A stretch of 64,000 nucleotides of DNA from Amyloporia xantha (lineage: Eukaryota; Basidiomycota; Agaricomycetes; Polyporales; Adustoporiaceae): the NCBI GenBank assembly GCA_036971615.1, contig JAYKKR010000026.1:372001-436000 (forward strand). Reading direction: 5' to 3'. The notes under the pieces are model-generated. The model was not told where the DNA came from. It worked only from the letters and a program-made list of their open reading frames with translations, and did no database searches. A program made the position numbers and the translations under genes. Position 1 is the stretch's first letter, and each line of letters begins with the position of its first letter. Of this stretch, positions 14,541-64,000 are shown one piece after another.

Positions 14541-17370
14541 TCACCGCTCCCACCTTCGATCGCCTCTCGCTCTCTCCTCTCTGTCAGTGCTCGATCGCGT
14601 CCGAGCCGTCGTGCAAGTCGCACCCTCGCGTGAATGCACGCCAGCTTCTGTGTCACCCCAGTCTGTGTCCTCTCGAGCCCTGCAAAGCCGGTATGCCCAT
14701 TCCTGTGTTTGTTGCGCTCTTCGCTCACAGACCCGGCCTCTGTCCGTAGACAGTCGTTCCCCTGCTGCTAAACTCCTCCTGCCCTCATTCTTCAGCATTC
14801 GAACTACGCGCATACGTCAATCCCGCGCAGCCAACGTCGCGCAGCAAACCCCACGCACACAACCCCGTACACGCACGCAGTACACAGCGCGAATGCGCCC
14901 CTGAACGGGCATAACAGTCGCGCTCAATAGTGCGACCGTCCGGACACCAGCACCCCGGTGAGCACAGATGCCCGCTGTGCGCGCGGAACACATCGTGCGC
15001 GTGTCCGTACACAGCCGACGGCAAGAGCGACGCAGAGAGAGAGCTGCGCTGGCTAGGCGTAGTCCTCAAGGCATCAGGCGCACGCGCTGCGAGGAATCCG
15101 CCGTCGGTACGTCATGAAAACAAATATATTTCGTTTCTATTTACACGTTTATCTAACTAAGCATCGACAGTGGACAACCGCGTCCGAGCCAGATCGCCGT
15201 CCCTTCCCTCGCACGCGTCTACTCCCGACGCTTACATGTCCCCACTCGGACCTGTGCTGGACACACCCGCAGCCGACCACACCCACGCGCTGTGCGCTGG
15301 CACTAGCGCTGCTAGACAGCCATCCCCGTCCCCATCGACGCGCTTTGCTCATCGAACAGCAAGCACGGGGTGCACAGCTGCGAGCTGGAAGACGGACGGG
15401 CGCATCCATGGTACAAACGCGTACCGCGCGTCGTTACATAGTATGGCAAGACAGGAGTGGGGGCGCGTGAACGAACAGCCAGACGGATGCGCGCCGCTGC
15501 CCTCGCTCCGCCCTCGCGGCTCGTTCGCCGCGTGCGTTCCCGGTTCCTTAGGTCTCAGAACCATCACGGCAGCCCACCACACACCGTTCGCTGTCCGCTG
15601 TCCGCTGTCCGGGCGTTGATGGTACGTTTCCGGACAGACTCGGTCCCTGACGACGTGCGCCTCGTCGGTCTATGTCCTGCTGATGAGGACAGCGTGCTTG
15701 CTGTTCAGAGCGCACTCGCGCGGGAGAACGCTCGCGCCCGGCAGGGGGGGTAGGGGTGGTCTTTCTCGCGAAACGAGAGCGCCGCCCCCTCTGCTTCTTG
15801 GCATCTACGCTTGCCCACAGAGTGTGCCTGTCGTCTCTGGTATACTGCTCGGGGCCTCTGCATATCGGCCGATGTACGCTCTCCACGCAGCATGGTACAT
15901 TCCCGCTCCCGCTCCTGTCCATTCGAGCGCCCTGTACCACCCTCTCACTCCTCACTGTCGACGCATGCTCGGTGTCCGTGCGGAAGTACGGCTACGCGAA
16001 CTGATATGAGACTGCTCGAACCCCACGCGCTGCACAGCGCTGCACCATGTAGGCGCGCTCTCGCCGTCCGATCGCTCGAAATAGCAGCATCGCCATGCCT
16101 GGCGCGACGCCCTTGTCGCGATTGTTTCCTCCACCCTCCGCTCGTTCTCAACCTCGACAACCACGATCGACTCGTGCGCCCGGTCATGAATTGCTTAACA
16201 CCCCGCCCGCTCAGCCCCGGTGCGTCCGGATCACAAACTAACTGCTGCTTACATACTATCTACAGTGCGGTGCTTGCGCACAGAGTCCCAGTCATCTACG
16301 ATTGGCTGTCTATTCACGAGCGAAGACGCGTCGCCCCCGCTAACCTCGAACGCTGGATGGTCCAAGTTGCGCCGAGACCATTTCTGCAGCGGCAGACATG
16401 GTTTCCGGAGAGAACAGACGGGCAGCGCTTCGCTCTGAAGGACGGTCATGGATCGTCCTGCGCGAGCTGAGAGCGAGCGTGAGGGAGAGGGCGAGGGCGA
16501 GGACCGTGCAGGCGTGCGGGCTCGTTATTAGTCGGCACGCCGAGAGGCGGGATTAGAGTAGCAGGTAACATCTAAAATTCCATGTAAATACCTGCCGTCA
16601 GTTCTGTTCAATACACGAGTCTGGTTATGAACGAAAACTTACAATCAGATCGGATGAATGCGAACGTCGGCGCATCATGAGAGCGGACGGGGAAATTCAA
16701 CTTGAAGTTGCGCTCGCTCGCAGGCACGTCTGCAGAGACCGTGGTACACGATATTAGCATCGCGAAAGCCGTGATCGCGCGCGCATGCTTACACGCACCG
16801 AACAATCACCGGCGAATCAATTCGCAGCTACTACATGCCTAGAAGGTCCGAGTTCTGTGAGCCAGCATTACATTTTCGACCGGAATGATTACTTACCAAA
16901 CGAGAAAGCCCACACAGATCGTATGAGCGACGCTGTCGGCAGCCAACAGGGCGCAAAGATGGTCCGCGAACGCGCAACACACAATCCCGCACTCGCATTG
17001 ACTGTTCAGACCTGCCGCGTTCATGGACTGCGTTAGGCTGTCCGGCATGTATCTGAGATGGTCCTGGGGACGACGCGCACTGTGTTGCACTTTCGAAGAT
17101 GCTGGCAGTCAGCTTTTCGACATGAATCATTGGGAAGAATCGAATGTGATCAGCATACCGGCGCGCTACTTGAAAGGCCTCGTCAACGAGGAATCAGAAC
17201 GCGGCGGCGTACTGACGGGGTGGTGAGCAATATGGAGGGGACGATGAGCTGAGCAGACTCACCCCTGAGCACGGCGAGGAGAGGGTGCAACGGCGGAGAC
17301 AGTGGATCGAGGAGAAGACGGCGCCGTCGATGGGGGGAGCCGCGGGGAGGTACGAGAGGGGAACGAGAAG

Positions 17371-17440
17371 TGGAGAGAGGAGAGGGGAGGGGAGGGGAGG
17401 AGAGGGGAGGGGAGGAGAGGAGAGGAGAGGAGAGGAGAGA
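17371..17440. repeat. GGGGA/GAGAG polypurine tract
   Basis: A run of gagaggggaggg units lies just downstream (leftward) of the minus-strand TATA box, so it would be a pyrimidine tract in the leader of that transcript. It differs in length in E1b (about 28340-28405). E2 has a weaker equivalent at 53805-53845. Confidence 0.8.
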
Positions 17441-17478
17441 ACAGAAGTGCTGACCTCAATCAACCGTCGCACCCCAGC

Positions 17479-17484
17479 TTATAT
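17479..17484 (-). promoter_or_regulatory. Conserved TATA box of the leftward E1a transcript
   Basis: On the minus strand the sequence reads ggatataagctgggg, followed by a pyrimidine-rich tract. The same layout is at about 28443 in E1b and at 53875 in E2 (ggttataagctggggg), and sequence similarity continues upstream of it on both sides. A promoter kept between diverged elements suggests leftward transcription. Confidence 0.55.
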
Positions 17485-19485
17485 CCTCCCCCAGCCTCGC
17501 CTTCTCACGCCGAATCGCACCATCGCCCATCGCCCATCGTCGTCTGCCCCTCGGCATCGGCATCCTCCCATGCTGGCAGTATCCATGAGATCGTACGTAC
17601 AGCACAACCGCTTCGACGCTGACGGTACGCCAAGCATTCGCATTCAAAGCGAAACGGCGGGATTCGCCGTGAAACCTCCAGGTGCGCGTATTCCGACACG
17701 ATTGATCACTCTTTGAAGCGCAGACGCGCGACTACGTGCGAGCGGCGGCAGGTCGGACGGAAGGTAGACAAGAGGAAGGGGTAGTATGGCCGCTTGGCGA
17801 ATACCCCGCTCCGTCGGCTACGTCTTGCGGATTCCGGCAAGGATCTTCCGTCCGTCCATAGGCGTAGCAGCCTTGACGTTGGGTCAGTATCCTCGTGAGG
17901 AAAGGCGTTAGGAGGGACATACCATCGTGACAGTCCTGCGATCCTTCGCAACGGTCCATACTCTCGTCGGAGCACCTCATCAGAGGCCGACCCCCGCTCG
18001 CTAGTGCTCTCGTCACTGTTCGGCATGTGCCCACAAGCCGATATCCAATCCGCTATCCCTGGAATCACCAGGCCCGGAACAGATGGTCAGTAGAGAAACA
18101 TTCCTATTGACGTTCCGTAACCGTTGACTTGCGCGAGACGCCGCGGCGGCGTTATGCGCCTCGGAAGAACTTGATTAGTGGCAAAGCGTCGCATCATCCG
18201 TGGAAGATGCGCGATGTTCGTGCCAGGCCCGTCCTCCAGAGCAATGTCTAACCTACTAGGGTAAGCTTCAACTCGGACATTAGGCTGCCCTGTTGAACGG
18301 CCTGTGCTGTCACCGCTCAGGCTACACAGTCCTCCGTGATTGCATCGCAGCTAAAGGCCGGCAGTGTTGAATTAGACTAGCAATACTGGAAGGATGCAAC
18401 GAGATACGTACCTGTCAGAGAAGTATGCCGCGTTCAGGGAAGTACACTATTACATGTACTGCTAGTGTGTCGGCACCAAATCAGCGAGAAGCAGCGCTGC
18501 TTTCGTGCGGGTAGACCGAGTCCATCAGAAGGACGCGAAATACAATCGAATATTGTGAAACGCTGTGAAGCCATGGCCGCGATCATAGCGATCGGGCGCT
18601 GAACGACAGCCGGATGTCAGTCTGACGCTCTCTGACGTCTCACGTACGTCGTGCTGTATCCGCTTGTGGTCAGGACATCTCAACGTCACGAACACGAAGT
18701 CCAGCATGTCTGTCTTCGTTCTTTCATACGGTAGAGTACATATGGAGTATATAAGTATCTACACAGCTAAATAGTCACGTCAGTAAACGGATACAAGAGT
18801 ATGTCAATTGAGGAATACGCACCAGCACACTACAGTGCTTTCACTGGCACGCCCGTTACAGCTCGATTGCTGCTACCAAACGACATCCCGCATCTTGGCG
18901 ATTGCACCCTGCGTCTGCATAAAGGCCTGGTACTGGGATCCGGTACGCTCCCACATGTGCTACGTCAAAGAATTCCGGTGTACGAGAGTGTGTCCTAGTC
19001 GCATCCAGAGATACTCCGAAAATAAACACCAAAAATGAGTAAAATAGATGTGACGGTAGGATACGTACACATGCGTGACATCTAAGCGGAATGCGGAGAT
19101 GTACTGATCGCAGATTGATCCGTTTTGAGTCAAGGAAGGAGCCCCGATTCTGTACTTGCTGAGGTGCGGAATAGATGTAAAGTCAACCGGCATGAGCTTC
19201 CACATCGGCTGAAATCGTGGTGAATATGCCTGTCATTGTTGTCCAGGTAGACACGTAGGTCATACATGTAGAGTAAAAAAGGTGGAGTATGTTTGGACCC
19301 AGCAAAGCACGCAAACATGCAGAGCAAGTCGGCCTAGCTTGTTACAGCGATTGTAAGAACATCGGATCGCCGGTCGCGATCACCTGCCAGTGTAAAAGGA
19401 GAGCAATTCAGAGTATAATCAAGGTCATCAGAGGAGCATATAATCAATACGAAAAGCAGGTAGCATACAGTAAAGTCTCGTACCC

Positions 19486-19735
19486 AGAGAGTGATGTTCC
19501 AAGTCCGAGACGTCTGCCACAGCTTGAAGTTCATGTGGCTGAAGCCCAATCGGGCCAGGCGTCTGATCAAGATCTGGCCGATCGTGCTTGCTCAGACTTC
19601 GTTTTCAGTTGTCTCTTACCTTGAACGTTCTTCTGCGTTACCTGAACCATGCATTCCTCCAGATATCCTGCTCCCACATCCAACCTGACCATTGACACCG
19701 CTTCTGCTGCCGAGCGGTTTTCAGACTCGGATGGC
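19486..19735 (-). other. Segment with a conserved minus-strand reading frame
   Basis: Read on the minus strand, this block gives VSMVRLDVGAGYLEECM and later ILIRRLARLGFSH. The matching part of E2 (about 56050-56310) gives VSTMRLEMGARYSQEC and ISIRRLSRFGFSH. Most differences are conservative at the amino-acid level, which suggests a once-coding exon. Between these stretches there are indels and stops, so an intact protein is not shown. Family unknown. Confidence 0.4.
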
Positions 19736-20694
19736 CCAGTTAGCTTGCTACCGTCACGATATCTTGGTTTCTCCTCAGCACTCTCCGAGTCCGAATTGGT
19801 TGCTAGCCAATCTCAAGACTTGCACACACCCTCCGAGTCGCATCTGCTGCCCGAGCATTGCATTCCTTCATGTTTTCAACTTCTATGACTGTCTCTGACT
19901 TGACACATCGACACTGCTTCCCGGGCCATCAATCAGTGATATTCAGCCGACTTTTACTACGGCTACTTCTCTGGCTCGGTTGCAACTCGGAGTGCCAGAT
20001 TTCAAGGCTTCCAGTTGTGCATGCTCTGCGACGAGTCAAGAACAGCATTGTTAAACCAATAACTGAGTTAATCTACTATACAATAGTTAGTCCATAGTAC
20101 ATTCGTTGTATGATCTTTGCGGCATCATTGACTTCGATGTGATCAATGCTTTATTTCAATTGCCTTCATTGGCTCGGTGCCTGTGAGCTGTGGAAGGCTG
20201 GATCTACCAGAGGTTAGTTTTCACAGTTCTATATGACATCGGGTGATCTGTCTGATCATTGCTTTCTGACTACTGTCGGCCATACACCATACATAGGATT
20301 CCAGATACATAAGATTGTGCTTTAGAGCGCAATCTTATCAGTAAACTCTCCGAGTCTCTGTTGTGTAAATTATCGACAAGTGTGACACAAACCCTATTCT
20401 CAGTTTACTTATCAGTTGATCAAATGAGGTGAAACATCAATTTCGGAACATGATGCCAAGCTGAGTAAGACGTAAATGATTTTGGAGAATTGTTTGAGGG
20501 CTTGTCAGTGGTTGCAAAATTCACACGTTAAATTTAAAAATTCTATTTCATCAGTGGCAACCATCAACTCACCAGCGCTCGGGACATTTTGCTCCGCATG
20601 TAGACTACCGAACATCAGACAGGCTGTCTACATGCTGAGCAAATGATCCAAGCGCTCGAGGTTCAGTGGGACTTCACTCCACCGATTTGATGTG

Positions 20695-20751
20695 TATAAG
20701 ACCACTCACTGTTGTGGCATCTGACCCGCATTTCCCTGCCCCGCCATTATG
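20695..20751 (+). promoter_or_regulatory. Conserved TATA box and start region of the rightward E1a transcript
   Basis: tataag at 20695 is followed 48 bases later by gccattATG. E2 has atatacataag at 56943 and gccattATG at 57001. Both then encode a short hydrophobic start (MPVHSIITFLVSS and MLVQASIIFIVSF) and reach a GTAAGT donor. In E1 a TGA sits just before the donor. This looks like the first exon of a small secreted or membrane protein, intact in E2 and possibly broken in E1. Confidence 0.45.
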
Positions 20752-23524
20752 CCTGTGCACTCTATCATTACTTTTCTTGTCTCTTCCCATCCACTGGTTG
20801 CCAACAAAACACGGGAGTGATATTGTAAGTGGCTACTACTACTCTGAGGATTCATCGACTCGAGCTGACGGTCGGAATTGAGATGTGAGCTGTGATATCG
20901 ATTCACGAAGTTCATCGGCGTCGGCCCTCTGCCTTCGAGGTAAGTAGAAGCCTGATTAATGATTACACGTGATCGTGTCCTGATTGGATTGTGCTACAGA
21001 GGACGCGTTGTGTGTCTCACGTCTCGATTCTACCTGCGCCGCTTGCCTACTACTTTTGGGCCAGTATGTGTCGGAAGCTAGACACGACCATCGTCAAGGG
21101 CAGCAGTGAATGGGCTCTGACACCTTTTTCGCTGGTGTGCGCCGGACCCTGATCGAGGAGAACGGTCACAGTGCTGGTTTGCGATCGTAGTGTGATCCCT
21201 TGCTGGCACGCCGGACGACCCGTCGACGATCAGACATTTAACACGCCTGCCTGTAACGGACGACATTGTTGCTGGGCCCCGCGGACCGTCGGTCACGTAC
21301 TACGATACCCGGGCCATTTTATCTCGTACTGCAGTGAGGCCCGCCGTCAGTTGCAAACGACAGAGATCTGAGGTGTCGGGTAGCATGGTGAGTATTAATA
21401 TTGTGTTCTATTTGGATTTTGTTGAGGATGGCCGGACTGACATCTTATCTAGATTTGTGCGTGTGGATTGACATCGAATGGACGCGCACAGATGTCAATG
21501 GACGACAGCAAGGAAGGTCATGGCATGTATGTTTCCTCCGATATCCACTCAGTCGGCGGCAGCTAATATTGGATCTTGTGGTACCTGTAGTGTGCATATG
21601 AGACCGTACGCGTCGTCAGAGCGTGCGTGATTCTCAGGCCTCAGCCGGTCCATCGTTGAGCGACCGGACGGCCCCAGTGAAAGTGGACGGCATCCGTCGA
21701 CTAGTGGTCTGTCTCCTTCGGTTGGGGAAACGACGGGCACGTTCACCGAGTATGAATGAACTGGACGACTGGACGGCTATCTCAGGACGTGACCGGACGA
21801 CAGATGCATCTCTAACACTACCATCCCGGACTAGTCACGGACCGTCAAAATACGCAGGGTCCTCAGGCCTCGTCCCGTCCATCGTTCAGCGAGTGGACCG
21901 TCTCTGTCAAAGTGGATGGCATCCGACAGCCGACAGTCTGTTCCTTGGTCACCTAAGCGAACGATGAGCGCGTTCGCTGGGTGGGGGCGAACCGGACGAC
22001 AGGACACCTGGCTGGCTATCTCAGTACACGACCGATGTATGTCTGTCAGTACGATGCCGGACCGGTCACTGCGAGCAGCCTGAGGGGAGCAGACCGCGTC
22101 CGCTGGTAGGATGATTGCTGTCAGCAAAGCAACGCGGTACGAACCGGCGCTCGGATCCGTATCCGGATCTGGATGGGAGCTCGACGTTTACTGAACGCGA
22201 GATGCGAAGAAGTAGGTGCGTTAGTTCACGTCCTCTCGTGCTGGAGCTGACTGTCTCCTGTCTCGATTTGACAGCGCACGTGTGCCGTCTACGACTCGTG
22301 TACCTTGCAGTGCACGCGTTCATTGGAGGCCGAGGCGAGGATCAGCAGCGGCATCTCCTGCCGTGCGAGCAGCTCTCAATGGACGCTGTTCGCGCGTCCG
22401 CTTTCCTCACGTGCATGGTGGACCGGACAGAACGACCAGACGACGTGGATGGTGGATGGCGTGGGAGAGCGACATGAACATCGAGTGAGCATCGAGAAGG
22501 GCGACAGGCATCACATTCGATTTTCACGGGCAGTCGTGCTATATACGGGTCTGCGCCCGGCGGGTTGGGACTCGCGCCATATCGGCCGTTCTACAGTACG
22601 TTCTTTCCATGTCTTGTCCTGTGAGTGCGGAGCTGACTGCTATGATTGTGTCAGAGTCCTCTCGCCGCTTGCACTATAGGATCCGCGCGATGTTGTACGG
22701 TACGTTCTTTCCGTCTGATACCCTGCTTGCGCCGGGAGCTGACTGCTGGAATTGCGCGTTCCAGAGGTCGCTGAACGGACGAGGTGGCTGCCGGACGGCG
22801 CGGGATAGCTACGCGAACGTCAAAAGAGCATCGAGAATGGGAAAGGGAGCACATTCGATTATTAGGAACACTTGTGACGTAGGATGCGCGCGATGTTCTA
22901 GATCTACGGTACGTTCTCTCCATCTGCCTGCTTGATTCCGCGTTCCAGAGGTCTCTCCCCATCGCCAGTCATAGACCCGCGACGTCCACATCAGCCCCGG
23001 GCCAGAGAAGACGGATGTCGCGTTCCTAAGGTCTTTATCCGCCGCGGCGCCGCCTGGTCCCTGTCGCGACGTCCACGGCTGCTCAGTCCAACTACATTTC
23101 GCACATCGGGAACGAGTTGCGTTCGAATAGACGCGCCAACCGGATCCGCGGACATTGGACGGCGGTGATCTGTCGCGAGCGCCACAATGGAAGGCTGCTT
23201 GCATCGCGCGCGGCATCGCCATATGCCCCGATATGGGTATATTGCGACGTTTGGCGGAGGCGGAGTCTCCGCGCGTGAGGGGCAGCGGCTTATTTTCGAG
23301 TTGCTGGACTCAGCTAGGGGGAGATGGTATAGGGCTGACAATGTACGGGGGTTGATGAGCAACAAACCGACAAGGAAGGGGAGGGGGTTGGTGAGCAACG
23401 AACCGACAGGAAGGGGAAAGCATACTTTCGATTTTTCGCTGGACATGCACGCGTGCTGACTTCAACAAATATATTTCGTCGTATGTACACGGATGGTAGC
23501 TACGCCGACACACGATGCCCTCCG

Positions 23525-25420
23525 CTACGGCACCAGTAGGCTCAAGTGCTTCTGCCCCGGCATCTGCATCTGCATCGACGGCTGCGCGAGGGGCATCGTC
23601 TGGAACATCGGGGACGGCGACGGCTGCGGCTGTGGCTGCGACTGCGATTGCAACTGCTGGCCGAACGACGACTGTGGTTGGAAGGTCGGCGTCCCGAAAG
23701 GCGCCATCGACGACGGCTGTGTCTGCTGTCCGAACATCGCGCCCATCCCGCCTACGCTGTTCCCCGTTGGCAAGGGCTGCGCGGCGAACGCATTTGGGCT
23801 GGGTGCCGGGAATGGACCGGAGAAACCGAGCCCTACTTGGGACTGAGAAGAGAAGGGCTGGGGCGCGGCTGCACCCGTACCCATGCCCCCGTTGAACGTG
23901 AGCCCCGTGTTCAGGCTCATGCTGCGTCCGAAGCTACCCGCCATCTGGCCCGAGGCCATCGAGGACGAGAAGGGCGCACTCGGGCTCGCCGAGAGGGCGC
24001 TGTAGGTATTTGCTGTCTGCGGATACGGATTACTGGTCATTTGGGCAGAAGGCTGTGCTACCGATGTCGGAGGCTGGGCGTTGGAAGTGTACTGGAGGGG
24101 GAGGGTGGAGGTGGTGGAGGACTGCAGGGACATAAGCGTGTTCCAATTGGAACTGCTCATTCCCGACGCTTGCGATTGAGACTGCGGAGTGTACTGCGAT
24201 GGCTGGGATTGCTGGGTATATGTTGTGGGAGAAACGGAAACGGGCTGCGATACCGACCTGAATTGCGAAGTCGATGTCACAGGAGACGTCGAGACAGCAA
24301 TAGGCGCTTTGGGTGGTACGGGAGGTGGGGCACTTGATGTCGACGCTACTGTCTCTGTCGGAGCCGAGGCAGGTTTCTGGAGAGGCGCGGTCTGCGCGCG
24401 AAGAGGCGGTGCAGCGGGGACTTTGCTTGACGCAGATCTTGATGGCCCGAGCACGGCGGCGACTTGGGCTGAGCGACTGACGAACGATCTGAACTCGTAC
24501 TTGGCTGAAAAAAGCGCAGTGTGAGCTGACAGAGCTGGCTGGCAATTGCAGGCAGTGATGGCATTGACGGGGTCTGACCCCGGGTCAGACCTCGTCAATG
24601 GGGTCAGACCCTTTGACCTTTGACCCAGGGTCAGAGTCAATGCGTGACTTATTAGAGCATGTGCGCTTTGGGTCTATGGCAGAAGCGCCGGACTCGGCCG
24701 CGCGAGGCTGTTGATCTACCGGCGTCAAGGTCACGCATTGACGATTGACCCGGGTCTGACCTTTTGACGGGGTCAAAGGGTCAGGGGGTCAGGCATTGAC
24801 CCGCACACCACTGACATCGATTTGCAGGGCATACTCACAGCGTATGTACTTTTCAAGATCGCTGTCCCTCTCCGAGTCGATCATGTTGGTCGGAGGGGAT
24901 GACGAGTCTCGTCAGGGTTGTGATGAGCATTGGACTTGATGTTGCCGGTATTTCTCATGACCTGGGACATATCTAGCGTGTTAGCGTACGCATACATGGT
25001 TATGAGGCCGCACCGACCTCCACTTGGTCCTTCGTCCAGGTATCCATAGTCAGGCTCTTCCTATGAAGTTGCAATTACATACTATAAACGCGCTGACACT
25101 GATGGAAACATACACTTTGGAGATGTGCGTTCCCATCTTGCGATGGATACTTGCACAGTTCATGCTGTACGAGCGACATCATCAAGCACAGCCCAGCAGC
25201 GCTCAAACCGATTGAAGACGCACCAGATGAAAATACCCAGATTATGCGACGCCCATCGCGGATTACGCGCCTTGCAGTCTGCACAGACATCTGCAAATCC
25301 GTATTCGAGCCATGAGCGACAGGTGAACGGACATATTCACCCGGAGTGCTCGCCATTTCCAGGTTGGCTTGCGAGCTCGAGGAGGGCCCGTTGGTTCCTC
25401 TCTGCTGTGATCTTGTTCAT
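23525..25420 (-). pseudogene. ArfGAP copy B, 3'-truncated
   Basis: Same exon order as copy A, starting at MNKITAERN, but the last exon breaks at 23556, removing both NPF motifs and about 60 or more residues. Element DNA then supplies a new tail (GQKHLSLLVP) and stop. A G-run near 24896 is one base shorter than in copies A and C, which shifts the frame inside the ArfGAP domain if real; homopolymer error is an alternative. Its upstream flank is E1b. The left part of this copy matches copy C and the right part matches copy A. Confidence 0.85.
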
Positions 25421-43772: not shown

Positions 43773-43777
43773 GTCAA

Positions 43778-50866: not shown

Positions 50867-53800
50867 ATCAGCCACGCTCGCAGCCTCGATCGGTCGCTCG
50901 CTCACGACGCAGCCCGTCTTTCGCCTTCGATCGCGTCCCTTGGAGCTCCCTGCCATTCCGACCGGCCGTTCGCCTCAACAGCCATCTGCTTGCTGCATCT
51001 CTCCCTCTATGCGCATGCCTCCTGCCCGTCTCGCATTCACGGCTGCAGCTCATCTCCCTCCGCTTGCCGTCCGCGTACAGGTTAGAGCAGATACTCGACA
51101 ACGGTCAGTCTTCAAAGCTTCACCGTCCATCTCACGCAGACGCGATAGCACCGTGGTCCTATCATGCACCACCGCGTCCGCTCTACACGCTTGAATCACA
51201 ACGGGTAGCATGCACGTTCAGCTCCTCATCGCCCGGCTGTAGTGAGCTGACGATATATCTGATCTGTTCCCAGTCGAATACCAGCCACGGACAGTCCTTC
51301 CAACACAGCTCCCCTCTGCGTGCGCCGTCCGTTGATCGCGCCATTCGCTACACGTACATACACGAATCAGCCATGCCGTCAGGCACTCACACGATCCCCA
51401 GACCACCCTGCCGACAACAACAGCACGCTGTCAAGTCGGGAGCCGTGCAGCGCCCATGTCGAGCCCCGCCGGTCTCTGCTCCCAATCTCCGTCAACATCA
51501 TCCGTCAAGACTGACTCGTCGTTGCCCCTCCCGTTGCCCCTACGCGCCCCCGCCGTCCGGCTATCCAAACATGAACAATCGAGCTGCATTCTCCGTCCAG
51601 CCCGTTGCCCAGTTAAGCAGCGCGCTCGCCTCTTACATGCCTACTCACACTTACAGCACCTCGCGCATGCTGGCCACGAGCTAGCGCATGTCGTTCCGTC
51701 TGACAGCGGGGCGGACAGCGCTCGTCCGTTCGACGATCTCGCGCTGTCCGTCGGACTATGGGCGCGGTCCGTGCGCTGACGTTGACGGCGTTCACACCGT
51801 CCGGCAGCAGTCTAGCGCCAGCGCATGCTCTGTCTCAATACTGCGAGACTACCAGGGCGGGCTTTCTTCTTACGTAGGTAGACGGTGTTCCTCCCCGCCG
51901 TCCTCGAACAGCGCATCTCGTGCTGTCCGGCAGGGAGGTCGGGGGCGGCGTTCATTCAATGATCACACGCCGTCCGCCATGGACTGGGGGCCAGGCATCA
52001 TCTGTCGGGGGTGGTGCCCGTGGTCTCTGGTCTCGATGGCACACTGCTCCGTTCCAGAGGCGGAGCGGGGTCTACTACCGCGGCGTGTCGGTTGTGCGTG
52101 TGGGAGCCGTGCATCGCCGTCCGGCGGACAAAGCATGGGTGCGGATCCGGCTCAAGGAGCGCGCACAGGGCACTGACGACGCTCCAGTCGTCGTCGGAAT
52201 CGTCGTCTTCTGGACGATGCAGACTGCGAGAGCGCAGGGGCTGTCGTCTATCGCACATCGCCCGGTGCAGCTCGTATGCGGGAACGAGACGGCTCGCGTG
52301 CATCCGTCCAAAACGAGTCGAGGCCGTTGGCCAATCAGGCGTCTTGTGGGAGGTACCGACGCTGCACCTGCGGAGCGCATCAACGCGCATGCCCTCGTCG
52401 GACGAGGCATGGTGCGAGTGCTTCCCTGGGCGCAAGCGCGCCGACGTCCAAGTCGTCTACTGGACGATCCAGACAGCGCGCGGCCGTCCACCTGAGTCCG
52501 CTTACAGAACGGTACGTATCTTAACATCTACTTACTCTTTCGACTGAGCACTCGTGGTGGTTCGGGCGGGTGGCGCACTGCTCGGCAACAGACGGACGAT
52601 GCGTGTGGGCGCATCCGTCCGCGCCGTCGCTCTGTTACAGGACGCAAAGGTTGACGTCGGACGGCATAGCCGCGGCGCTGCTGTGGGGACAGACGTCCAC
52701 CCTGCGCTGGATGCGCTTGCCGATCACTCGATGAAAGCGGGGGACCGCGCTGGACGTCTCGCCCAGAGACACTGCAGGCGCGGACGTCTGCGACGCCGTT
52801 ATGTACCTGTCATGTAGTCTACACGAATAAAGTAGCAAACATATATCTGTTCAACGCGGTTAGCCACGAGTCTTCGGACATGTAAACAAAATGCGAGCTT
52901 ACCAAGCGCCGTGCGCGCTCGGGCGTGCTACCGCGATGCTGACTCCCTGCACCTGCAGTCGCCGTCCGTCGCTCTCGCTCGATCTCGATCTCGATCTCGT
53001 CCGAACCAGCGCGCCCGACTTGTCATGCGAAGCGTTCCATCCACGGGCGCAGACAACGTAGCACCTCAGGCTACATTCCGCGCGGGTGGACTTCGGAGGG
53101 TCTGGCTTCCGTTCTAGAGCAACAAACAGTCAGCAGTGAGTCCGACATACAAGATTTCGAATACACACGTACCGTACGCGCCGAAGAGTGCCGACGCCAT
53201 ACAAGATGCGGATGTCGACGTGTTCGATTTACATGCAGGTAAACTCGAGCACCGGGATAAGAACAGATATTCGAGATCATAGCACAGGCTCACAAGTTAT
53301 ATATATTATCACCTGGCAGACCCCGGCGTTCCGCGCGGAGATGTGCGAGTCTGAACGGATCGGGTAGAATCGCTAGCAGGGAGCATCAGACGAGTTCTCC
53401 CCGATTACGACAAGGGGCTACGTACGAACCAGGACGGCTATCCTTGATCGGCGCCTCACGTAGTAGGTAGCCGATGCTCGTTATTGGGTACGCGTGCTGT
53501 GAGGTCGTCCGGACTCGTTGCGGCGTTCGAGGTGTCAGCGAACGTCGAGGAAAATCGAATGTGATGCCTGACCGACGCGGCGTTAGCGTCCATCGCACGT
53601 TCAGCGTCCGTCGTGTAGGCATGAATGGCGGGCTAAAATCCTGAGTCACTCATCAGCTCGTCAGCACAACGAGAACGAAACGGGTCCGCACCGTGACGTC
53701 GATGAACGCGTCCCCGAGAGACGGAAGTGCGATGGAACCAGCGGCGAGCAAGGGATGCGGATAGCAAAGAGACGGAGAGCGGCGATGCTTCCTCGAGAGG

Positions 53801-53874
53801 CAGGAAGGGGAGAGGTGCTGAGAGAGAAAGGAGGAAGGAGAGGATACTGACCGTCACTCAACAACTCCCCCAGC

Positions 53875-53880
53875 TTATAA
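53875..53880 (-). promoter_or_regulatory. Conserved TATA box of the leftward E2a transcript
   Basis: The minus strand reads ggttataagctggggg followed by a C/T-rich leader, matching the E1 site at 17479. Confidence 0.5.
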
Positions 53881-56800
53881 CCTCCTCCAATCTCTCCTTC
53901 TCACGCTATACCCGCCCCATTCCCCACTTCCGCTTCCCCGTCCGCCCCAGAATCCTTGCGTCCAATCCCTTCCGTCGTACGTACGCAGCAACCGCTTCAC
54001 CCTTGGATTCAACGCCAAGTGTTCGGCCGTCACCTCTGCGTCAGAGGAAGGCAAAGTCTGCCGTGAAACGCCCGCGCGCGTATTCGCACGCGTGATCGAT
54101 CATATTGCGAAGTTGTTCGTTGCATGGTAGAGCGGCATTGTCAACACGTCTTCCCGGAAGGAAGACGGTCAGGAGGGCAGGATAACGGAATACGCTGCAC
54201 ACAGAGCGCATAGAAACGCAGTAATGCAGGTCCTACGTATGATGGGGGAGAAGCGTCGGTCAGCGTCCAGCGTCCGCAAGACGGAATGACAGGTGTAGAG
54301 CCTACCATTTCGGATACGATGAACGCATCTCTCGTTCATGCAGGAAATGCCCCCGAGTTCCTCTACTTTCGACCCCAGTGGCAGGGCCACGCGCATGTCG
54401 TCGTCCAGTCTGTATGTCCAGAAAGCTGTATAATTACATCAGTGGACGGCATACCGCTCTGCTAAGGCACGCGGAATTCGATGCACCGAGTTACTGTGAA
54501 CAGGCGAACATTCTGACGATCGAGGCGAGCGTCGTAATGACACCCAAGCGAGACGCCGCGTTACATCACGTCGCTTCAGTACTCAAGAACTCTTACGCAT
54601 ATGTGGTCTGCCGGATACCTGCTTTCACGCCGGCCGTCCGACGGCTTGTAAGCTACGGAGACGATCAACGTTGACAATTGTTCTCGTCGTGGTCTGTGCA
54701 GCAAAACAATATGTGATACAGACAGCAGCCCACTCCGTGAGTGAGCTGCTGGACAGAAATGAGAAACAACTTCATTCAAACGTGTGAACGAACGTACCTG
54801 CTTACTACCTGCGACGGACAATGCTTCTTCTGCCGTCACCACTGAGAATCGGAGCACGGACTATCAAGCCCGTGAAACCACTCAAACGGAGGGCCAATCC
54901 ATTCCCATTGGAACAGTAACGGGATCGAGCCGTACATCCGAACGGACAGAGAGCGGCTATTGGAAGGAGAATCGGGGGAGTACGTACGGATATCCTGAAA
55001 CGCGGACAAACCACCGACGCGATATGATGATCGAGCGCTGACCGCGAGGCAAACAAGTTAACCGATATCCTTCTCTTGTGTTCTTCGCTCGGGCTCGCCG
55101 CGAGCTGCATTGCTCGCAAGCCTGATGACACTGCGAACCGTTTGTACAATGTTCTATCAATTCTGCTCATGCTTAACTGTTGCTTCGTATTGTACAGTAT
55201 ATCTACTATGTTCTTAAAACCTGCAAGAGATGAGAACGGTATCAACGACATAGCAAATGGTGGAGTTGACGGAAGAGCACGCGCACTTAGCAGATAGGGT
55301 TGATGTACGTTTGACCTGCTACTGCTCCAGAGGTCCCTCACATGGATTTTTTGGCCCCTTAAATGTTGGCCAAGGATGCCGAACACGGTGCAACTCATAT
55401 CTGGACGGCAATATTGCGCGCTTCCCTAAAATATCGTAGTAGCAAAAACAAACGTGTAAGAATGATACGCACGTAATTGTGACGTTCAAGATCATCTAAG
55501 CCTGTGACGTTCAAAAGACCATGTAAGCGGCGTGCAGAGGCGGAGAAGGAGCGATCGACTCGGAGTTTATTGATCCGAGCTCTGGGACTCGGAGATGCAT
55601 GTGAATGCCACTGAATGGCCGAACTGGCACGAGAAGCCATAGATATCCGTAGTAGTTGGAGACTTGGAGCGCATTCAAGCCTGTCTTGCCCGCCGAACGA
55701 TGCTGTCAGGCTGTGAGCACTTCTAGAATCCAGCGGACTGTGGTGAAAACATATCATAGAGGGATTGCAAGAATGGATGAAGCTCTGAGTCAATGAACTT
55801 TGAATCTCTAGGTCGGACAAGCTTGCATCTCGAAAAAACCATCCATCTTATGTCAGAGAAAAAGAAGGACTTTGTATGTATGAAGCGTGGAAGTAAAACA
55901 CAGACATGGATGTCGAATATTGGATGCTGCTACCAGCGTCCGAACGAATTGGACGACCAAGCACGGCCTCAGTGAAGGCGAGATGCATTGGCTTAAGTAT
56001 TTCGCCCCAACGAGGACATTTGCGTCGAGATCTGAACGACCATCAATGCAGGAAGACAAGAAAACATCGTTTTCAGAGGAGAAAGCAGTCAAACTCGGAA
56101 GACGTCTGAGGACGTCTGTGGCTGAAGCCAAATCGGGATAGGCGTCTAATCGAGATCTCGCCGATCGCTCTCGCTCGAACTTCGTTTACTTCTCCTTCAT
56201 CGATGTCCTTCAACACTCTCAGTGCATCTACTGCACGGGCAACAAGCAACACATTCCTGCGAATATCGTGCTCCCATCTCTAACCTCATTGTGGACACCA
56301 CTTCCATTGCTATGTTACGATTCTACCACTACGAGATCTGAGCTCGGTACGCTACTACTAGGCCGCTTCCGCGAGTCAAGTTGCACGGTCCACAGCAGAA
56401 CTGAAGGCTTGCACATACCTTTAAGAAAGTTGATAAATGGATCATAATATGAATTTGTGTGTAACAGAACAATACTGTTGCACACATGGTCCATAGGTTT
56501 GTTATATCAGATGTGATATTGTCTTTGAAGCAATTTCGGCCTGAGTGTGTGCTACATTCGACATTCGACTTCCGGGATATGATCTTATCAAAAGCATTTC
56601 TCCTTTTGGACAGTGAAATCTTTGGCAGCAAGCGTGATGGAAACCCTAGTCCTGGGTCACTTATGAATTTGTCATTATGAGGTGAAACACCAATTTTTGG
56701 TAATTTTCGGAACAATGCAATGCCAAGCTGAGATAAACGTAAGCACAGTCTGAGAATTGTTTGAGGGTTTGTTGGCGGTTGCGGTATTCACACGGTAAAT

Positions 56801-56942
56801 TCAAAGAATTTAATTCCATCAAGTGGTAACCATCAGCATACCGAGCGCTCGGTGTATTTCACCTGGCCCATAGACCACCGACTTGGAACATCAGACCGGC
56901 TGCCTATGTGCCAAGTGAAAGGTCCGAGTGCTCCGCCGATTG

Positions 56943-57072
56943 ATATACATAAGGCCACTCACGGTGCGACAGCCAGCCCATTCTCCCCTATACTGCCATT
57001 ATGCTCGTACAGGCGAGTATCATATTTATTGTCTCTTTCTTAGTATCTACACCAGGTACTCCGAGAACTGTA
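56943..57072 (+). promoter_or_regulatory. Conserved TATA box and first exon of the rightward E2a transcript
   Basis: atatacataag at 56943 is followed by ATG at 57001, a hydrophobic N-terminus (MLVQASIIFIVSFLVS) and a GTAAGT donor at about 57070. Here the frame is open into the donor, unlike E1. Confidence 0.45.
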
Positions 57073-59189
57073 AGTGATATGAGTCATGTTAGCCTTGGGA
57101 CTCGAGCTGACCATAGCTTCCTACTGTAGCTCAAGACGATAAGTTGGCGAGAATCAAACTGCGCAGAGATGCGCTGCGATATGATCAGTCCTGAAGTCGG
57201 TCAGTCTCATCAGTGATTCATTAAGGTAAGCCGATTTACACGTGATCGTGTCCTGATTGGATGGCGGACGCGTCGTGCGCGTCGCGGCTCTGTTCTATCT
57301 AGTAGTAGACAGCACCTCCAGTACATGCTAGAAGCCGGACGCGATCGGCTTCCTTCGCTGGCACGCCCTGACCTAATGGACGATCGAGCAGTACGGTCTG
57401 TTTCTGATTCGCACCGGACGACTTGTGGGCGGCGCTCGGACAGGGCGTCCAACTTTGAACTCACAGGCAGTCCTGTAGCGGATGCCACCGTAGCTTGACC
57501 GGTCTCGATGGCCTGCCGGTTCAATGCGGGTACTCAGACTGTTTGGTGTCCTACGAGGGCTACGGTCAGTTGTGAATGACGAGGATCTAAGGTCCTAGGC
57601 GGCATGGTGAGTTTAAGTACTGTGTTCTGTTTCGAGTCTCCTTTAGGGTTGCGAGGCTGACGTCTGATCTAGATTGATGTGGCTCGACGTCAAACGGACG
57701 TGCGCAGACGCTGATCGACGAAGCGAAGGCAGGGAAGGTACTACTGTATTATCACATATCCCTTCGCTCTGGAGCTGATCTCACCTGCGCAGTATCTACA
57801 GTACCTACGGCATGCATATGAGGCTGCGCGCGTCGTCAGTGTGGGGCGCTCACAGGCTTGCTGCCCTCATTCGGCAAGCGGATGGTGTCAATGGAAGTGG
57901 ACGGTATCGGACGGCTGCCTAGCGGTCCTGTCGCTCAGGCAAAGCACGGACACGTTCCCCGTATGTTGATGAACCGGACGGCAGGGTGCGGCTAGTACTA
58001 CCATCCCGGACACGCCATGGTGGTCAGGGTGGACTGGATCCGACGGGTCCCTCGATCGGCCAAGCAGAGCAGTGACCGGCGTTCGGATGCGCATCCGGAC
58101 AGGATGCTTGACGTTAGATGAGCACGAGACATTGGACGACAAGGCAGGTACCTTGATTCGCGGCCTCTCGTTGGGGAACTGACTGTTCTTGTTTTGACAG
58201 CGCATGAGTTGTGGCTACAGGCCGTGGGTCACAAGGCGTGGGAGGTCAACGTTTCAACTTGCAAGCTGAGGCGAGGATCAGTGGTGTGAGCTGCTCGCAA
58301 CGGACGACATTACCTTGCGTCGGGTCTGCGCCGGACCGGACGGATCGAATGGACGATGTGTACAGTGGACGGCGCGGGACAGCTACATGAAGATGATCGA
58401 GCATGATGAGAGGCATCACATTCGATTCTTACGGGCACTGAGCACGTGTGCCGTAGGATCTGCGCGCTGGGTTGGGGCTTGCGCGACGTCAGTCGGGAAG
58501 ATGTTCTAAAGTACGTTGCTTCTTCTGATATGCTGTGTTCGCTGAGTGATGGCATTCGTAAGCTAGAGGTGTCTTCGTCGCCAGTCCTCCGCTATATGCT
58601 CGCGCGGTCCACATCTGCCCGAGTAGGCAGCTTTTGCACATCAGGTTCGCGATTACAGCAGGGAACGAACGGCGGATCGATGGACGCCGGGCGGGAGAAC
58701 GACTTGATTTGCCTAAGCGGCCACAATGGAAGGCGGCGTTGCTTCGCGTGCAGCATCGCGGCATATCCCAAAACGGGTAGATTGCAACGTCTGACTGCGG
58801 GCGAGGGGCCGGTAGTATGTGGGCTCCGCAGCTGAGAGGAGAGCGGAGAGTAGGGCGAAAACGAAGCGGCTGCTCTCGTCGTCCGTACGCGGGAGACCGA
58901 GCATTCGGATGACAGGTTGTGTGCGTTTTGCGTGAGCAGTGCGGAGAGCAAAGGGAGGGCACTATAGCGGCAGAAGACAGTAAGCAAACGGGCGCTGTAC
59001 TCAGTGCTTCAACGTACTAATTAGCACTGTCACAGGGGATTGAAGAGCCAAATCGAAGCTGTCCGAAAACGGACAGATTGCGCACTTCGAGATGGCTGGG
59101 CCATTGACGTTCGCACGCCTTGTGAGTGCGGGATGGTGAGAACAGACAACGATGAACGAGAGCGCGGTTTCCTCGAAGGGAAAGAAGGC

Positions 59190-59370
59190 GGAGGGGGTTT
59201 CTCAGGGAGGGAAACGAAGGGGGAGAGGGGGCATTGCGAGGAAGGGAAGTGAAGGGGAGGGAGGGTTACACAGTGGGGAAGGGGAAACAAGGGGAAGAGG
59301 GGGGCAGTTGCGAGGAAGGGGAAACAAGGGGAAGAGGGGGCGGTGGCGAGGAAGGGGAGAAAAGGGGAAC
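59190..59370. repeat. G-rich tandem repeat at the right end of E2a
   Basis: Repeated gaaggggaaacaaggggaag-like units. E1 has a shorter relative at 23340-23420 built on gagcaacgaaccgacaagga. Both lie 130-200 bases before the right end of the element. Confidence 0.75.
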
Positions 59371-59444
59371 GGCAACTTTTGATTTCTTGACGGACAGAGT
59401 GTGGGGAGGACTCTGCAATTTCTTGGCGGACAGAGGACTTCATT

Positions 59445-61572
59445 TTAGCACGAAAATATATTTCTCGCTATGTACAACGGGTCGTGTCTACAGCACAGCG
59501 ACCGAGAAGTCGACTTACCTCGCATCACTCCAGAGACCTCGCAAACGGCTGCAGCTCCCGCGACGAACCTCCGCACTCGCGTCAGCCCCGTCAGCGCGCC
59601 CGAGGCCTCGTTTCGGTGAATGATACCAAACTCGGCCATCCGGATGGGCAGCTCCTTGTAGCTCCGGTCGCGCGAGTCGAAGATCAGACAGTGGCCGGGG
59701 CAGTTCATCGGCTTCAGCGCCCACCCCTCCTTCTCAATGTTGAGCGTGAACATGTCGTCCCTGTAGTTCTGCCAGTGCCCGGACGTTTCCCAGAGCTTGC
59801 TGTGGTACATGTTCGGCGAGATGACTGCAAACAGGGTCACGAAAATAAGCGAAGGAAGAAGCGAGGCAGTCACCTTCTTGATAGCCTCGCTTGAAGTACT
59901 CAGACTGTAAAAGCGAAGTGAGCGATCCGAGAGGACGATTAGATAACGCAGAGTGCGCACCCGCATGAGCTCGACGAGAGTGTTGTAGATCCTGGTGCCG
60001 TGTGGCAACCAGAAACAGCTACCAGGACTAAGGTCGTTGAAGAAGAACAGCTCTTGTTCCTGGAATTTCTATTAGCCTACGCGTCAACCAGCGGCCCTAA
60101 AGACAGACCTTTCCGATCTTCCTATGGTCACGTCGTGCTGCCTCCGCGAGGAACTCTTTATATTCGGCAAGCTGCTTCTTGTCCGGGAACGAGATGCCGT
60201 AGATTCGCTGCAGAGAATCATTGCTCGGATCTCCGAGGAAATACGAGGCGGAGTTCTGCAAGAGCATAGACAGTGAGAGGGAAGTGGGCAAGTGACGCGC
60301 ATTGATCTACCTTCGTAACCATGAACGCCTTGATCTTGCCCGTGTGAGGGATGTGGGGGCCGACACACAGGTCCACCATCGGCCCACAGCGGTACACGGT
60401 GGTCGACGTGCCATCGGGAATCTTCGACTCAATGAGATGTTTCTTGTACTTGTTGTACTACGTGCAATACAGTCAGTCCACACAACCTGCGCGGCAGCTT
60501 GAGCATGCAGACTCACGGCGAACATCTCGAGCAGCTTCTCCTTCGAAACGACGAGTCGCTCAAACTTCTGCTTCTCTCTAATCGCCACGTCGGAGAGCTT
60601 CTCCAGAGCGGGATAGTCTGCATTCGTGACGACCCTTCACGAGATATTCTCAGTCGAAGGGTTCAATGCGACACCGATAGATCTCACCGTTCGTCGATCG
60701 CCATTTCGTAGAAGAATCCTTCCTCCGTGGGCGGGCCAATACACAAGTGACATCCGTAGTGACGCTCCGCGGCCTCTCCCAAGACGTGAGCCGACGAGTG
60801 CCAGAAAACGCGCTTGCCTGAAGACTCGGATGAGTGAGAGGCCAGAATATCTCCACAGAAGAACAGCTTGAGCCTGAGAGACGCTCACCTTCCGGATGCT
60901 CAAAGTCGAGCAGCTCTAGGGAGCACGAGGCTTCGAGAGGTCGCTCCAGATCCCATACGTCGCCATCCACCTAGCAGGAGTTAGCAAAGCGGGCCACAGT
61001 CCCGCAAATTCCCCACCTTTGCAATGACAATGCGATCGGCAAGACCCTTCGAGATCTCTTTTGCAACGTCCATCGGACTTGTCTCCCAGCTCGTTCCTTT
61101 GCGTTTTGATCCATCTGGCAAGGTGATTTCGATCTCCTGACGAGGCTGCGCTGTGTCCGAAGAAGTCAAGCATGCTCAACACCGCGTAATTTCAGTGTAC
61201 ACACATTTTACCCACTCGTCGTACTCGGCTTTCAGTTGGTCGAACATTTTGATACGGTGATCGAAGAACTCCGGAGGAGGTTGCAGCTAACCAGTACGAG
61301 TTCAGCGTATGCACACAGTCCATAGTGCATGTACATGCCTCCAATGGTTGGCCAGTGGCCGCGGCACTCTTGTCCTTCTTGTCCTTCGGTTTCTTGCCTT
61401 CATTTGCATGGGGACCCTGTAACGCTGGAAGCTGCGCAGGCTGTGAAGTAGACGCGACTGGCGTAGTCATATTAGAGACTAGACGAGCTGTCGAATAGTG
61501 ATGTCTGCAGGATTGGAGAACGCGGTGGTGGGCTAATGTACAAAGACGAGCTCGATTCAGCACTCGAAGCAT
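59445..61572 (-). pseudogene. ThrRS copy B, 3'-truncated
   Basis: The copy starts at the same presequence Met and retains the TGS and editing domains and the first part of the catalytic core through TRVRRFV. It then enters element DNA, which supplies an unrelated tail to a stop at 59445. Motif 3 and the anticodon-binding domain are missing, so it cannot be an active synthetase. It carries the alternative alleles described for the duplicated segment. Upstream (to the right) it is followed by E2b rather than by a native flank within the window. Confidence 0.9.
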
Positions 61573-61655
61573 GAATTCAAGGCCGAGTCACCAGCCTAGC
61601 GCTCAAATGAATCACTCGTCTCTCATGCCGATGAGATAAGATAAAAAGACGAAAG

Positions 61656-64000
61656 ATCAGCCACGCTCGCAGCCTCGATCGGTCGCTCGCTCACGACGCA
61701 GCCCGTCTTTCGCCTTCGATCGCGTCCCTTGGAGCTCCCTGCCATTCCGACCGGCCGTTCGCCTCAACAGCCATCTGCTTGCTGCATCTCTCTCCTCTAT
61801 GCGCATGCCTCCTGCCCGTCTCGCATTCACGGCTGCAGCTCATCTCCCTCCGCTTGCCGTCCGCGTACAGGTTAGAGCAGATACTCGACAACGGTCAGTC
61901 TTCAAAGCTTCACCGTCCATCTCACGCAGACGCGATAGCACCGTGGTCCTATCATGCACCACCGCGTCCGCTCTACACGCTTGAATCACAACGGGTAGCA
62001 TGCACGTTCAGCTCCTCATCGCCCGGCTGTAGTGAGCTGACGATATATCTGATCTGTTCCCAGTCGAATACCAGCCACGGACAGTCCTTCCAACACAGCT
62101 CCCCTCTGCGTGCGCCGTCCGTTGATCGCGCCATTCGCTACACGTACATACACGAATCAGCCATGCCGTCAGGCACTCACACGATCCCCAGACCACCCTG
62201 CCGACAACAACAGCACGCTGTCAAGTCGGGAGCCGTGCAGCGCCCATGTCGAGCCCCGCCGGTCTCTGCTCCCAATCTCCGTCAACATCATCCGTCAAGA
62301 CTGACTCGTCGTTGCCCCTCCCGTTGCCCCTACGCGCCCCCGCCGTCCGGCTATCCAAACATGAACAATCGAGCTGCATTCTCCGTCCAGCCCGTTGCCC
62401 AGTTAAGCAGCGCGCTCGCCTCTTACATGCCTACTCACACTTACAGCACCTCGCGCATGCTGTCCACGAGCTAGCGCATGTCGTTCCGTCTGACAGCGGG
62501 GCGGACAGCGCTCGTCCGTTCGACGACCTCGCGCTGTCCGTCGGACTATGGGCGCGGTCCGTGCGCTGACGTTGACGGCGTTCACACCGTCCGGCAGCAG
62601 TCTAGCGCCAGCGCATGCTCTGTCTCAATACTGCGAGACTACCAGGGCGGGCTTTCTTCTTACGTAGGTAGACGGTGTTCCTCCCCGCCGTCCTCGAGCA
62701 GCGCATCTCGTGCTGTCCGGCAGGGAGGTCGGGGGCGGCGTTCATTCAATGATCACACGCCGTCCGCCATGGACTGGGGGCCAGGCATCATCTGTCGGGG
62801 GTGGTGCCCGTGGTCTCTGGTCTCGATGGCACACTGCTCCGTTCCAGAGGCGGAGCGGGGTCTACTACCGCGGCGTGTCGGTTGTGCGTGTGGGAGCCGT
62901 GCATCGCCGTCCGGCGGACAAAGCATGGGTGCGGATCCGGCTCAAGGAGCGCGCACAGGGCACTGACGACGCTCCAGTCGTCGTCGGAATCGTCGTCTTC
63001 TGGACGATGCAGACTGCGAGAGCGCAGGGGCTGTCGTCTATCGCACATCGCCCGGTGCAGCTCGTATGCGGGAACGAGACGGCTCGCGTGCATCCGTCCA
63101 AAACGAGTCGAGGCCGTTGGCCAATCAGGCGTCTTGTGGGAGGTACCGACGCTGCACCTGCGGAGCGCATCAACGCGCATGCCCTCGTCGGACGAGGCAT
63201 GGTGCGAGTGCTTCCCTGGGCGCAAGCGCGCCGACGTCCAAGTCGTCTACTGGACGATCCAGACAGCGCGCGGCCGTCCACCTGAGTCCGCCTACAGAAC
63301 GGTACGTATCTTAACATCTACTTACTCTTTCGACTGAGCACTCGTGGTGGTTCGGGCGGGTGGCGCACTGCTCGGCAACAGACGGACGATGCGTGTGGGC
63401 GCATCCGTCCGCGCCGTCGCTCTGTTACAGGACGCAACGGTTGACGTCGGACGGCATAGCCGCGGCGCTGCTGTGGGGACAGACGTCCACCCTGCGCTGG
63501 ATGCGCTTGCCGATCACTCGATGAAAGCGGGGGACCGCGCTGGACGTCTCGCCCAGAGACACTGCAGGCGCGGACGTCTGCGACGCCGTTATGTACCTGT
63601 CATGTAGTCTACACGAATAAAGTAGCAAACATATATCTGTTCAACGCGGTTAGCCACGAGTCTTCGGACATGTAAACAAAATGCGAGCTTACCAAGCGCC
63701 GTGCGCGCTCGGGCGTGCTACCGCGATGCTGACTCCCTGCACCTGCAGTCGCCGTCCGTCGCTCTCGCTCGATCTCGATCTCGATCTCGTCCGAACCAGC
63801 GCGCCCGACTTGTCATGCGAAGCGTTCCATCCACGGGCGCAGACAACGTAGCACCTCAGGCTACATTCCGCGCGGGTGGACTTCGGAGGGTCTGGCTTCC
63901 GTTCTAGAGCAACAAACAGTCAGCAGTGAGTCCGACATACAAGATTTCGAATACACACGTACCGTACGCGCCGAAGAGTGCCGACGCCATACAAGATGCG
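61656..64000. mobile_element. E-family element, copy E2b, left 2.3 kb (runs off the window)
   Basis: Nearly identical to the start of E2a, with scattered substitutions (for example near 62462, 62527, 62698, 63292 and 63437). The array therefore has at least two elements here too, and further ThrRS fragments are expected beyond the window. Confidence 0.7.

Follow-up and report, generated by a model that had tools for sequence, protein, structure and literature searches.

To our knowledge, the target duplications left by transposons measure between a few and some tens of bases. Circular plasmids integrate in fungal transformation by a single crossover at homologous sequence, often as multimers, and large retrotransposon derivatives (LARDs) lack the gag-pol coding region. 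In maize, reversed-ends transposition of Ac was observed to give nine new duplications of 8,157 bp to ~5.3 Mb, with 8-bp target duplications at the junctions and use of a pair of Ac termini; the maize genome holds three such cases, with exactly two repeat copies each, according to the portion of that report considered here (PMC3744419). In this study a stretch of 64,000 nucleotides from the basidiomycete Amyloporia xantha (GCA_036971615.1, contig JAYKKR010000026.1) was analysed. It corresponds to positions 372001-436000 of the contig called C19 here and is referred to as the window; coordinates without a contig name are those of the window. It contains two arrays of an element, E, of ~8–9 kb, one beside an ArfGAP gene and one beside a threonyl-tRNA synthetase (ThrRS) gene. 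At these and all other loci for which both flanks were read, seven out of seven, n copies of E occur together with n+1 direct copies of a host segment, G', giving the structure (G'-E)n-G'. We tentatively read E, with slightly less than an even chance of being right, as a non-autonomous, non-protein-coding mobile DNA, the insertion of which would leave a kilobase target duplication that is then expanded by unequal exchange.

Spread of E and the host segments around it

The genome searched comprises 46.8 Mb in 60 contigs. For the census of the family this DNA was queried with pieces of E1 and E2, the forms beside ArfGAP and ThrRS, respectively; only the best candidates were considered and all counts are therefore lower bounds. 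At ArfGAP, E1 copy a was placed at 14541..23547 by self-comparison of the window and reading of the junctions, and copy b at 25508..34507 by self-comparison, both on the + strand; the unit repeat extends over 11,861 bp at 99.09% identity. This is what the initial annotation had described. At ThrRS, E2 copy 1 is found at 50865..59561 (DNA searches and junction alignment) and copy 2, truncated where the window stops, at 61654..64000 (self-comparison and DNA searches), again on the + strand, and the part of the unit repeat within the window has 4,439 bp at 99.55%. Two copies had been counted here; the array is real, but it runs past the window end to C19:466245 and consists of four E and five ThrRS pieces. 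E1a (9.0 kb) and E2 copy 1 (8.7 kb) share four short collinear blocks of 77–85% identity in the self-comparison, in agreement with the diverged blocks in common order noted before.

Both arrays thus stand, but the family is not confined to two unrelated genes. A search for further copies, which the initial annotation had proposed, yielded E matches of ~280 bases or more on at least 12 contigs (C1, C11, C12, C13, C16, C18, C19, C23, C31, C34, C40 and C59); C3 and C4 gave shorter matches. The spacing of adjoining units is 10.97 kb at ArfGAP, 10.8–11.0 kb at ThrRS, 10.37 kb in C31, 9.5 kb at the locus C59b, ~11.2 kb in C16 and C18, ~9.9 kb in C23 and 11.3 kb in C4; in C16, E copies also occur 24 and 30 kb apart. 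By eye, the sequences fall into a group A (E1, C31, C59a, C16, C18, C12 and C1) and a group B (E2, C59b, C23, C34/C13 and C40). Units inside an array are alike, with identities of 98.7–99.4% in the two C19 arrays and 96.5–98.9% in C31; those of C59b are at least 99.8% identical. Between 14600 and 15400 C31 is closer to E1 (identity 0.80–0.93) than to C59a (only 0.68–0.86), and in mid-element it is nearer to C59a (0.69–0.96). This mosaic suggests that E lineages recombine.

The host segment differs from locus to locus. At ArfGAP (two E, three G' of 1.94 kb) the left-most copy, the 5' part of the gene at 12599..14540, is continuous with the full gene at its left, is backed by ArfGap exon matches and is 95.8% identical over 1,913 aligned bases to the right-most one. 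The latter (34508..36513, from the alignment) is a truncated segment followed by E-free sequence, taken as native upstream DNA, and a further truncated 5' segment lies between the two E at 23548..25507 (self-comparison). The four E and five G' (2.09 kb) at ThrRS begin with the 5' part at 48773..50864, again with the full gene at left, which matches the outermost copy on the other side, C19:464155-466245, at 98.9% over 2,091 bases; the next, truncated one is at 59562..61653 (self-comparison and ThrRS exon matches). The five of these G' that lie in the window are on the - strand. Four E and five G' (1.6–1.7 kb; outermost copies 99.0% identical) were found in C31, the fourth E, split by ~44 kb, being counted as one, and three E with four G' (1.65 kb; 99.1%) in C59b. 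Single E between two G' are present in C59a (1.80 kb; 96.5%), in C40 (1.5 kb; 98.0%; E itself read piecewise) and in a relic at the start of contig C1 (~0.6 kb; 85.2%). G' therefore measures 1.5–2.1 kb at six loci and ~0.6 kb in the relic; by eye, and with its edges not aligned, that of C16 is nearer 2.7 kb. The left-most G' is continuous with the sequence left of the inner junction and the right-most one with E-free sequence. With n+1 G' and continuous outer flanks, each locus resembles either an insertion that duplicated a long stretch of its target or the single-crossover integration of a circle. The ~44 kb within the fourth E of C31 (C31:163112-206888) open with an 86-bp tandem repeat array.

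The ArfGAP gene was identified by two exon pieces matching PF01412 (E 3.5e-06 and 0.002), neither of which reaches the curated cut-off for the whole protein, and ThrRS by TIGR00418, which matches exon by exon. Host genes elsewhere encode a protein with RasGEF_N above cut-off (C16), an ankyrin-repeat protein (C31, Pfam) and a protein with SH3 and Ras-association domains (C59a). The best relatives of the last are from Polyporales, Rhodonia placenta first at 74%; these are brown-rot fungi. The host pieces tried from C40, C59b and C23 had no Pfam match. At ArfGAP and ThrRS the right end of E abuts the interior of the same host gene, as had been noticed initially, and the left end precedes the likely start codon by ~75 and 81 bp, respectively, close to the 80–90 bp given there. 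That spacing does not hold elsewhere (C31 ~167 bp, C40 ~270 bp, C16 ~400–490 bp with the edge not aligned; start codons and distances were read by eye), and in C23 gene and E point in the same direction, with exons of the gene extending to the left end of E by eye. A fixed spacing was hence rejected, and neither spacing nor the orientation to the gene, also presumed constant at first, is a rule.

Several further features lie around the arrays. Translation of the truncated ArfGAP copy would pass from the gene into E and end ~10 residues later (12599-12640, 23490-23560; by eye). In C40 (L042:297-400) a divergently oriented neighbour gene seems, by eye, to have its first coding stretch interrupted by the left end of E, whereas that stretch is retained in the right copy. 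A helicase-like gene (AAA_11/AAA_12, 37471-39514), divergent from ArfGAP, and a CSTF2-like gene (46287-46865) are also present in the window. Inverted repeats bracket both C19 arrays (6420-7583 and 8305-8860 versus C19:467077-467626 and C19:470965-472122; 77% and 90%). A 163-bp repeat of 100% identity occurs twice, 1.1 kb apart (43778-43940 and 44879-45041), and tandem repeats with periods of 54–57 and 123 bp are at 4757-5416. Closely matching stretches at C34:2043-2055 kb and C13:123-139 kb contain a second ThrRS and a group-B E.

Ends, hairpin module and coding content of E

Of the two termini of E, the right one is the better conserved. In group A it reads ...GGACATGCACGCGTGCTGACTTCAA...AAATATATTTCGTCGTA; at ThrRS and in C59b it reads ...ACTTTTGATTT...GGACAG...AAATATATTTC. 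By sequence comparison AAATATATTTC is located at 23467..23477 in E1a and again at 34427 and 59454, all on the + strand, and it is present at the right end of E in nine of the 11 loci read there, among them C16, C18 and C23. From there to the host edge, 40, 42, 81, 92, 97 and 98 bp were counted at the six younger loci; in C59b ~30 bp of this stretch are also present in the adjoining host sequence. The group A right-end pattern has 15 matches in the genome, all forward, and a control pattern none; the motif had no exact match in viral contigs. The left end is pyrimidine-rich and starts near TTCGATCGC in several loci. Microhomology at the junctions is little or none (at most 3 bases at ArfGAP, by eye), no short shared duplication was seen there by eye, and no A-rich tract was seen at the junctions examined. 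Terminal inverted repeats of 18 bases or more are lacking in E1 and E2, the two copies tested.

A scan for common RNA structure in three sequences (222 scanned segments, both strands counted) gave one clear peak, at 20557, with z -8.3 on the + strand and -4.4 on the other; the single further segment beyond -3 is at 22271 (z -3.2). The peak is a hairpin of ~29 pairs with the loop GAACATCAGAC. It occupies 20574..20656 in E1a (+ strand, structure scan and alignment), its arms start at 31552 in E1b, and its equivalent in E2 was aligned at 56844..56932 (+ strand). The loop is identical in six of eight aligned families and deviates in C40 and C11. The hairpin-loop pattern has 24 matches in the genome (21 forward, 3 reverse), all of them at E copies, and the reversed control has none; C34/C13 gave no match. 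Paired changes were studied in eight of nine loci fetched, C23 being omitted since it has no loop match and its 3' arm looks broken. Hairpin cells are paired in 90.5%, versus 28.6–44.2% when the alignment is slid and 88.8% in shuffles, where the observed value was reached in 16 of 500. Seven cells changed on both sides (reached in 9/500 shuffles), five pairs had a double-sided change (61/500) and further pair types numbered 15 (432/500). Together, these values lend moderate support to the hairpin. It could also be a DNA palindrome in a promoter instead of an RNA structure.

In E1 a TATA-like box (TATAAG) was aligned ~40 bp behind the hairpin at 20694..20706 (+ strand), and the box is also present at 31658 and 56947, so that the conserved TATA boxes of the initial annotation are recovered both internally and, as AAATATATTTC, at the right end. 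Its conserved first exon fared less evenly. The stretch 20744..20832 (+ strand, alignment) starts with CCATTATGC, replaced by CTATTATGC in C31 and C59a, and leads to a splice-donor-like TGTAAGTG at 20824 which is common to all five sequences aligned, but the part between the two is not conserved. Judged from these sequence features, the module reads like a promoter plus the start of a spliced non-coding RNA. Nothing in the whole window reached the gathering score of Rfam. Under a relaxed threshold five matches fell on the E1 hairpin region and one on that of E2, all far below cut-off, to models of microRNA precursors and one small nucleolar RNA. A telomerase RNA template, considered because of AAACCCTA upstream of the hairpin, was rejected as it is missing in C59b.

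E looks non-protein-coding. Among 13 open reading frames of E1 and E2, one of which starts 14 bp before E2, and a further one spanning the right junction of E1a, none had a Pfam match above cut-off; the only hit, Rap1_C (E=0.043), is below its own. The frame over the most conserved left block found no relative among 615 candidates in a protein search at E 0.01, and the longest open frames in five E copies measured have 165–238 amino acids. A codon-phase chi-square test on eight pairs of E lineages (127–142 overlapping segments per pair) gave medians of 1.1–1.5, where ~1.4 is expected by chance, and maxima of 8.1–13.6, hence no signal; over all codon-phase tests made, no frame came up reproducibly. 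In a first coding control, ThrRS of C19 versus C34 (~90% identity), seven segments gave 0.3–4.9 and no codon-phase signal either. As the C34 copy may be decaying, a pair of HSP70 paralogues with 69% identity was adopted as control afterwards and showed the signal in two of three segments (64.4, 23.3 and 2.2). A weak phase bias near 21380-21740 of E1 reached 19.1 in one test and 13.6 in another; it is not independently replicated because every comparison includes E1 sequence. Indels of up to 30 bases are divisible by three in 30 of 125 cases (C31-C59a), 48 of 179 (E1-C31), 50 of 188 (E1-C59a) and 75 of 193 (E2-C59b).

Origin of the duplicated host segments

Beyond the observed structure, copy counts, missing coding signal and conserved features, we infer that a single event produces the kilobase duplication and that arrays grow by unequal exchange. 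A founding insertion would place E between two direct target copies, mostly of 1.5–2 kb and usually spanning the promoter region into the gene body. With the target duplicated on both sides, a gene cut at either side would remain whole in one copy. The G' copies would then serve as homology for unequal exchange, leading to (G'-E)n-G' and also keeping the units alike, while E would be transcribed and mobilised in trans. The outermost G' of the six younger loci differ by 1–4%, versus ~19–33% for the aligned parts of E between loci with different genes, which suggests that the lineages split before the present insertions. It is suggestive, from these comparisons, that several lineages continued to move after splitting and that constraint kept their non-coding content.

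Several points weigh against a mobile E with long target duplications. AAATATATTTC is absent from the C34 piece read and from the C1 relic, and the left end, which had been thought similar as well, has no one fixed starting base. Neither an enzyme nor an autonomous partner of E was found. A 0.76-kb piece of E in C12 has no flanking duplication within the 10 kb read, and in C34/C13 E adjoins one ThrRS copy only. C16 and C23 were read partly, with duplication edges not measured, and the flanks in C11, C18, C3 and C4 were hardly or not covered. The 1–4% between G' copies are unsafe as an age, for gene conversion between them can lower divergence, and G' could equally be the homology arm of a circle. 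Finally, the evidence comes from one genome.

The circle deserves attention first. If circular DNA consisting of E and the locus's own G' integrated at the host segment G by single crossover, often as a multimer, exactly (G'-E)n-G' with n+1 G' would result, and the size of adjoining tandem units indeed stays within 9.5–11.3 kb. Such circles would, however, require that E is joined to a new G' for each locus before integration, a step this model leaves unexplained. The G' of one locus has no match of 100 bases or more to that of another in the regions compared. No circular form was seen, and we regard this origin as rather unlikely. Still less probable is that E is a family of chromosomal long non-coding RNA genes spread by segmental duplication, with G' arising from exchange, unequal or illegitimate, between E-bearing and E-free alleles and breaks at the right end of E. 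The closest process described for it, as far as the part of the report considered goes, is reversed-ends transposition of Ac in maize, which gives tandem duplications whose junction holds a transposon (PMC3744419). The promoter-like module, TATA-like box and splice-like sites, kept while the intervening stretches diverge, would suit such genes, and in C34/C13 E comes together with a second ThrRS, as would be expected of a segmental copy; yet the same right end of E is joined to six different host stretches at six loci, a pattern not predicted by segmental copying. That E is a protein-coding transposon or virus in decay, with every copy dead, would agree with the lengths of the longest frames and the lack of domains above cut-off, but there is no codon-phase signal even between diverged lineages, though non-coding motifs were kept, and we consider it improbable. 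An assembly artefact, for which long tandem repeats are a classic source, is most improbable of all, since most units at ArfGAP, ThrRS and C31 differ by ~1%, over 10–23 kb in the C19 arrays, which are thus not exact assembly duplications (units of C59b differ by 0.15–0.2%), and seven loci with different genes show the same structure, C59a and C40 with a single insertion.

Returning to E as mobile DNA, the combination of dispersal, a conserved right end, kilobase target duplications and a lack of coding signal would suggest a chemistry of insertion, or a route of recombination, that has yet to be described. Entry of E into the promoter of ThrRS, an essential gene, with the gene left intact would thereby be explained, and E offers a natural system for following the tandem amplification of gene fragments. 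The more specific proposal, a class of mobile DNA without encoded protein that uses the promoter/hairpin module and the right end and makes target duplications of 1.5–2 kb, is possible but doubtful. If true, such duplications would allow it to enter promoters and essential genes harmlessly and would provide homology arms for its tandem amplification.

Comparison with known element classes

The initial annotation could match E to no known class, and this is borne out by the lack of terminal inverted repeats in E1 and E2 and by the Pfam and Rfam results above. E is set apart from the named transposon classes because each fails in at least one defining feature tested; this rating depends on the kilobase duplication having been made at insertion, as we infer. 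The flanking repeats are locus-specific host DNA and not the element-derived long terminal repeats (LTRs) of LTR retrotransposons or LARDs, and a gag-pol region is found neither as a domain above cut-off in the 13 frames nor as a codon-phase signal. Instead of the short fixed target-site duplication of DNA transposons with terminal inverted repeats, the flanking duplications are variable and ~0.6–2.1 kb long. The constant 3' end of Helitrons (CTRR, with a hairpin) and their lack of a target duplication are not seen either, given 40–98 bp between motif and host and the kilobase duplication. Non-LTR retrotransposons, HeT-A-like ones included, do not fit, with no A tract seen at the junctions examined and no reverse transcriptase domain in the 13 frames; the former also disfavours retroposition. 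A simple satellite is not found either, the units being E plus locus-specific G', and for reversed-ends transposition neither 8-bp duplications (none by eye) nor recognised ends (no terminal inverted repeats) were detected. What does agree is the number of homology copies, n+1 at all seven loci with both flanks read, as is typical of a circle integrated by single crossover. Among the listed titles and beginnings of abstracts on basidiomycete and Polyporales repeats and on long target duplications nothing resembled E, which does not imply absence from print, and a literature search on circle reintegration brought up nothing related.

Likenesses exist nevertheless. Helitrons with gene capture also combine host gene pieces with tandem arrays; unlike them, E has no Rep-helicase found and no constant TC...CTRR ends, and its gene piece remains at its own locus. 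HeT-A-type telomeric retrotransposons share with E a promoter-like motif at the 3' end directed into the next tandem unit, but no reverse transcriptase or A-rich junction was detected in E, and among the loci on contigs of known length only C1 is at a contig end. LARDs resemble E in having kilobase direct repeats around a non-coding interior; the direct repeats of E are, in contrast, host-gene sequence that differs by locus. As in the maize Ac duplications, so far as the part of the report considered describes them, flanking DNA is directly duplicated and the junction would be occupied by a transposon, but the repeats at E are 0.6–2.1 kb, terminal inverted repeats are lacking and n is up to 4 (PMC3744419). 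The tandem integration of circles by single crossover in fungi has the anatomy of the E loci, (G'-vector)n-G'; E differs from it as a natural, diverged family without coding signal that is found at many genes.

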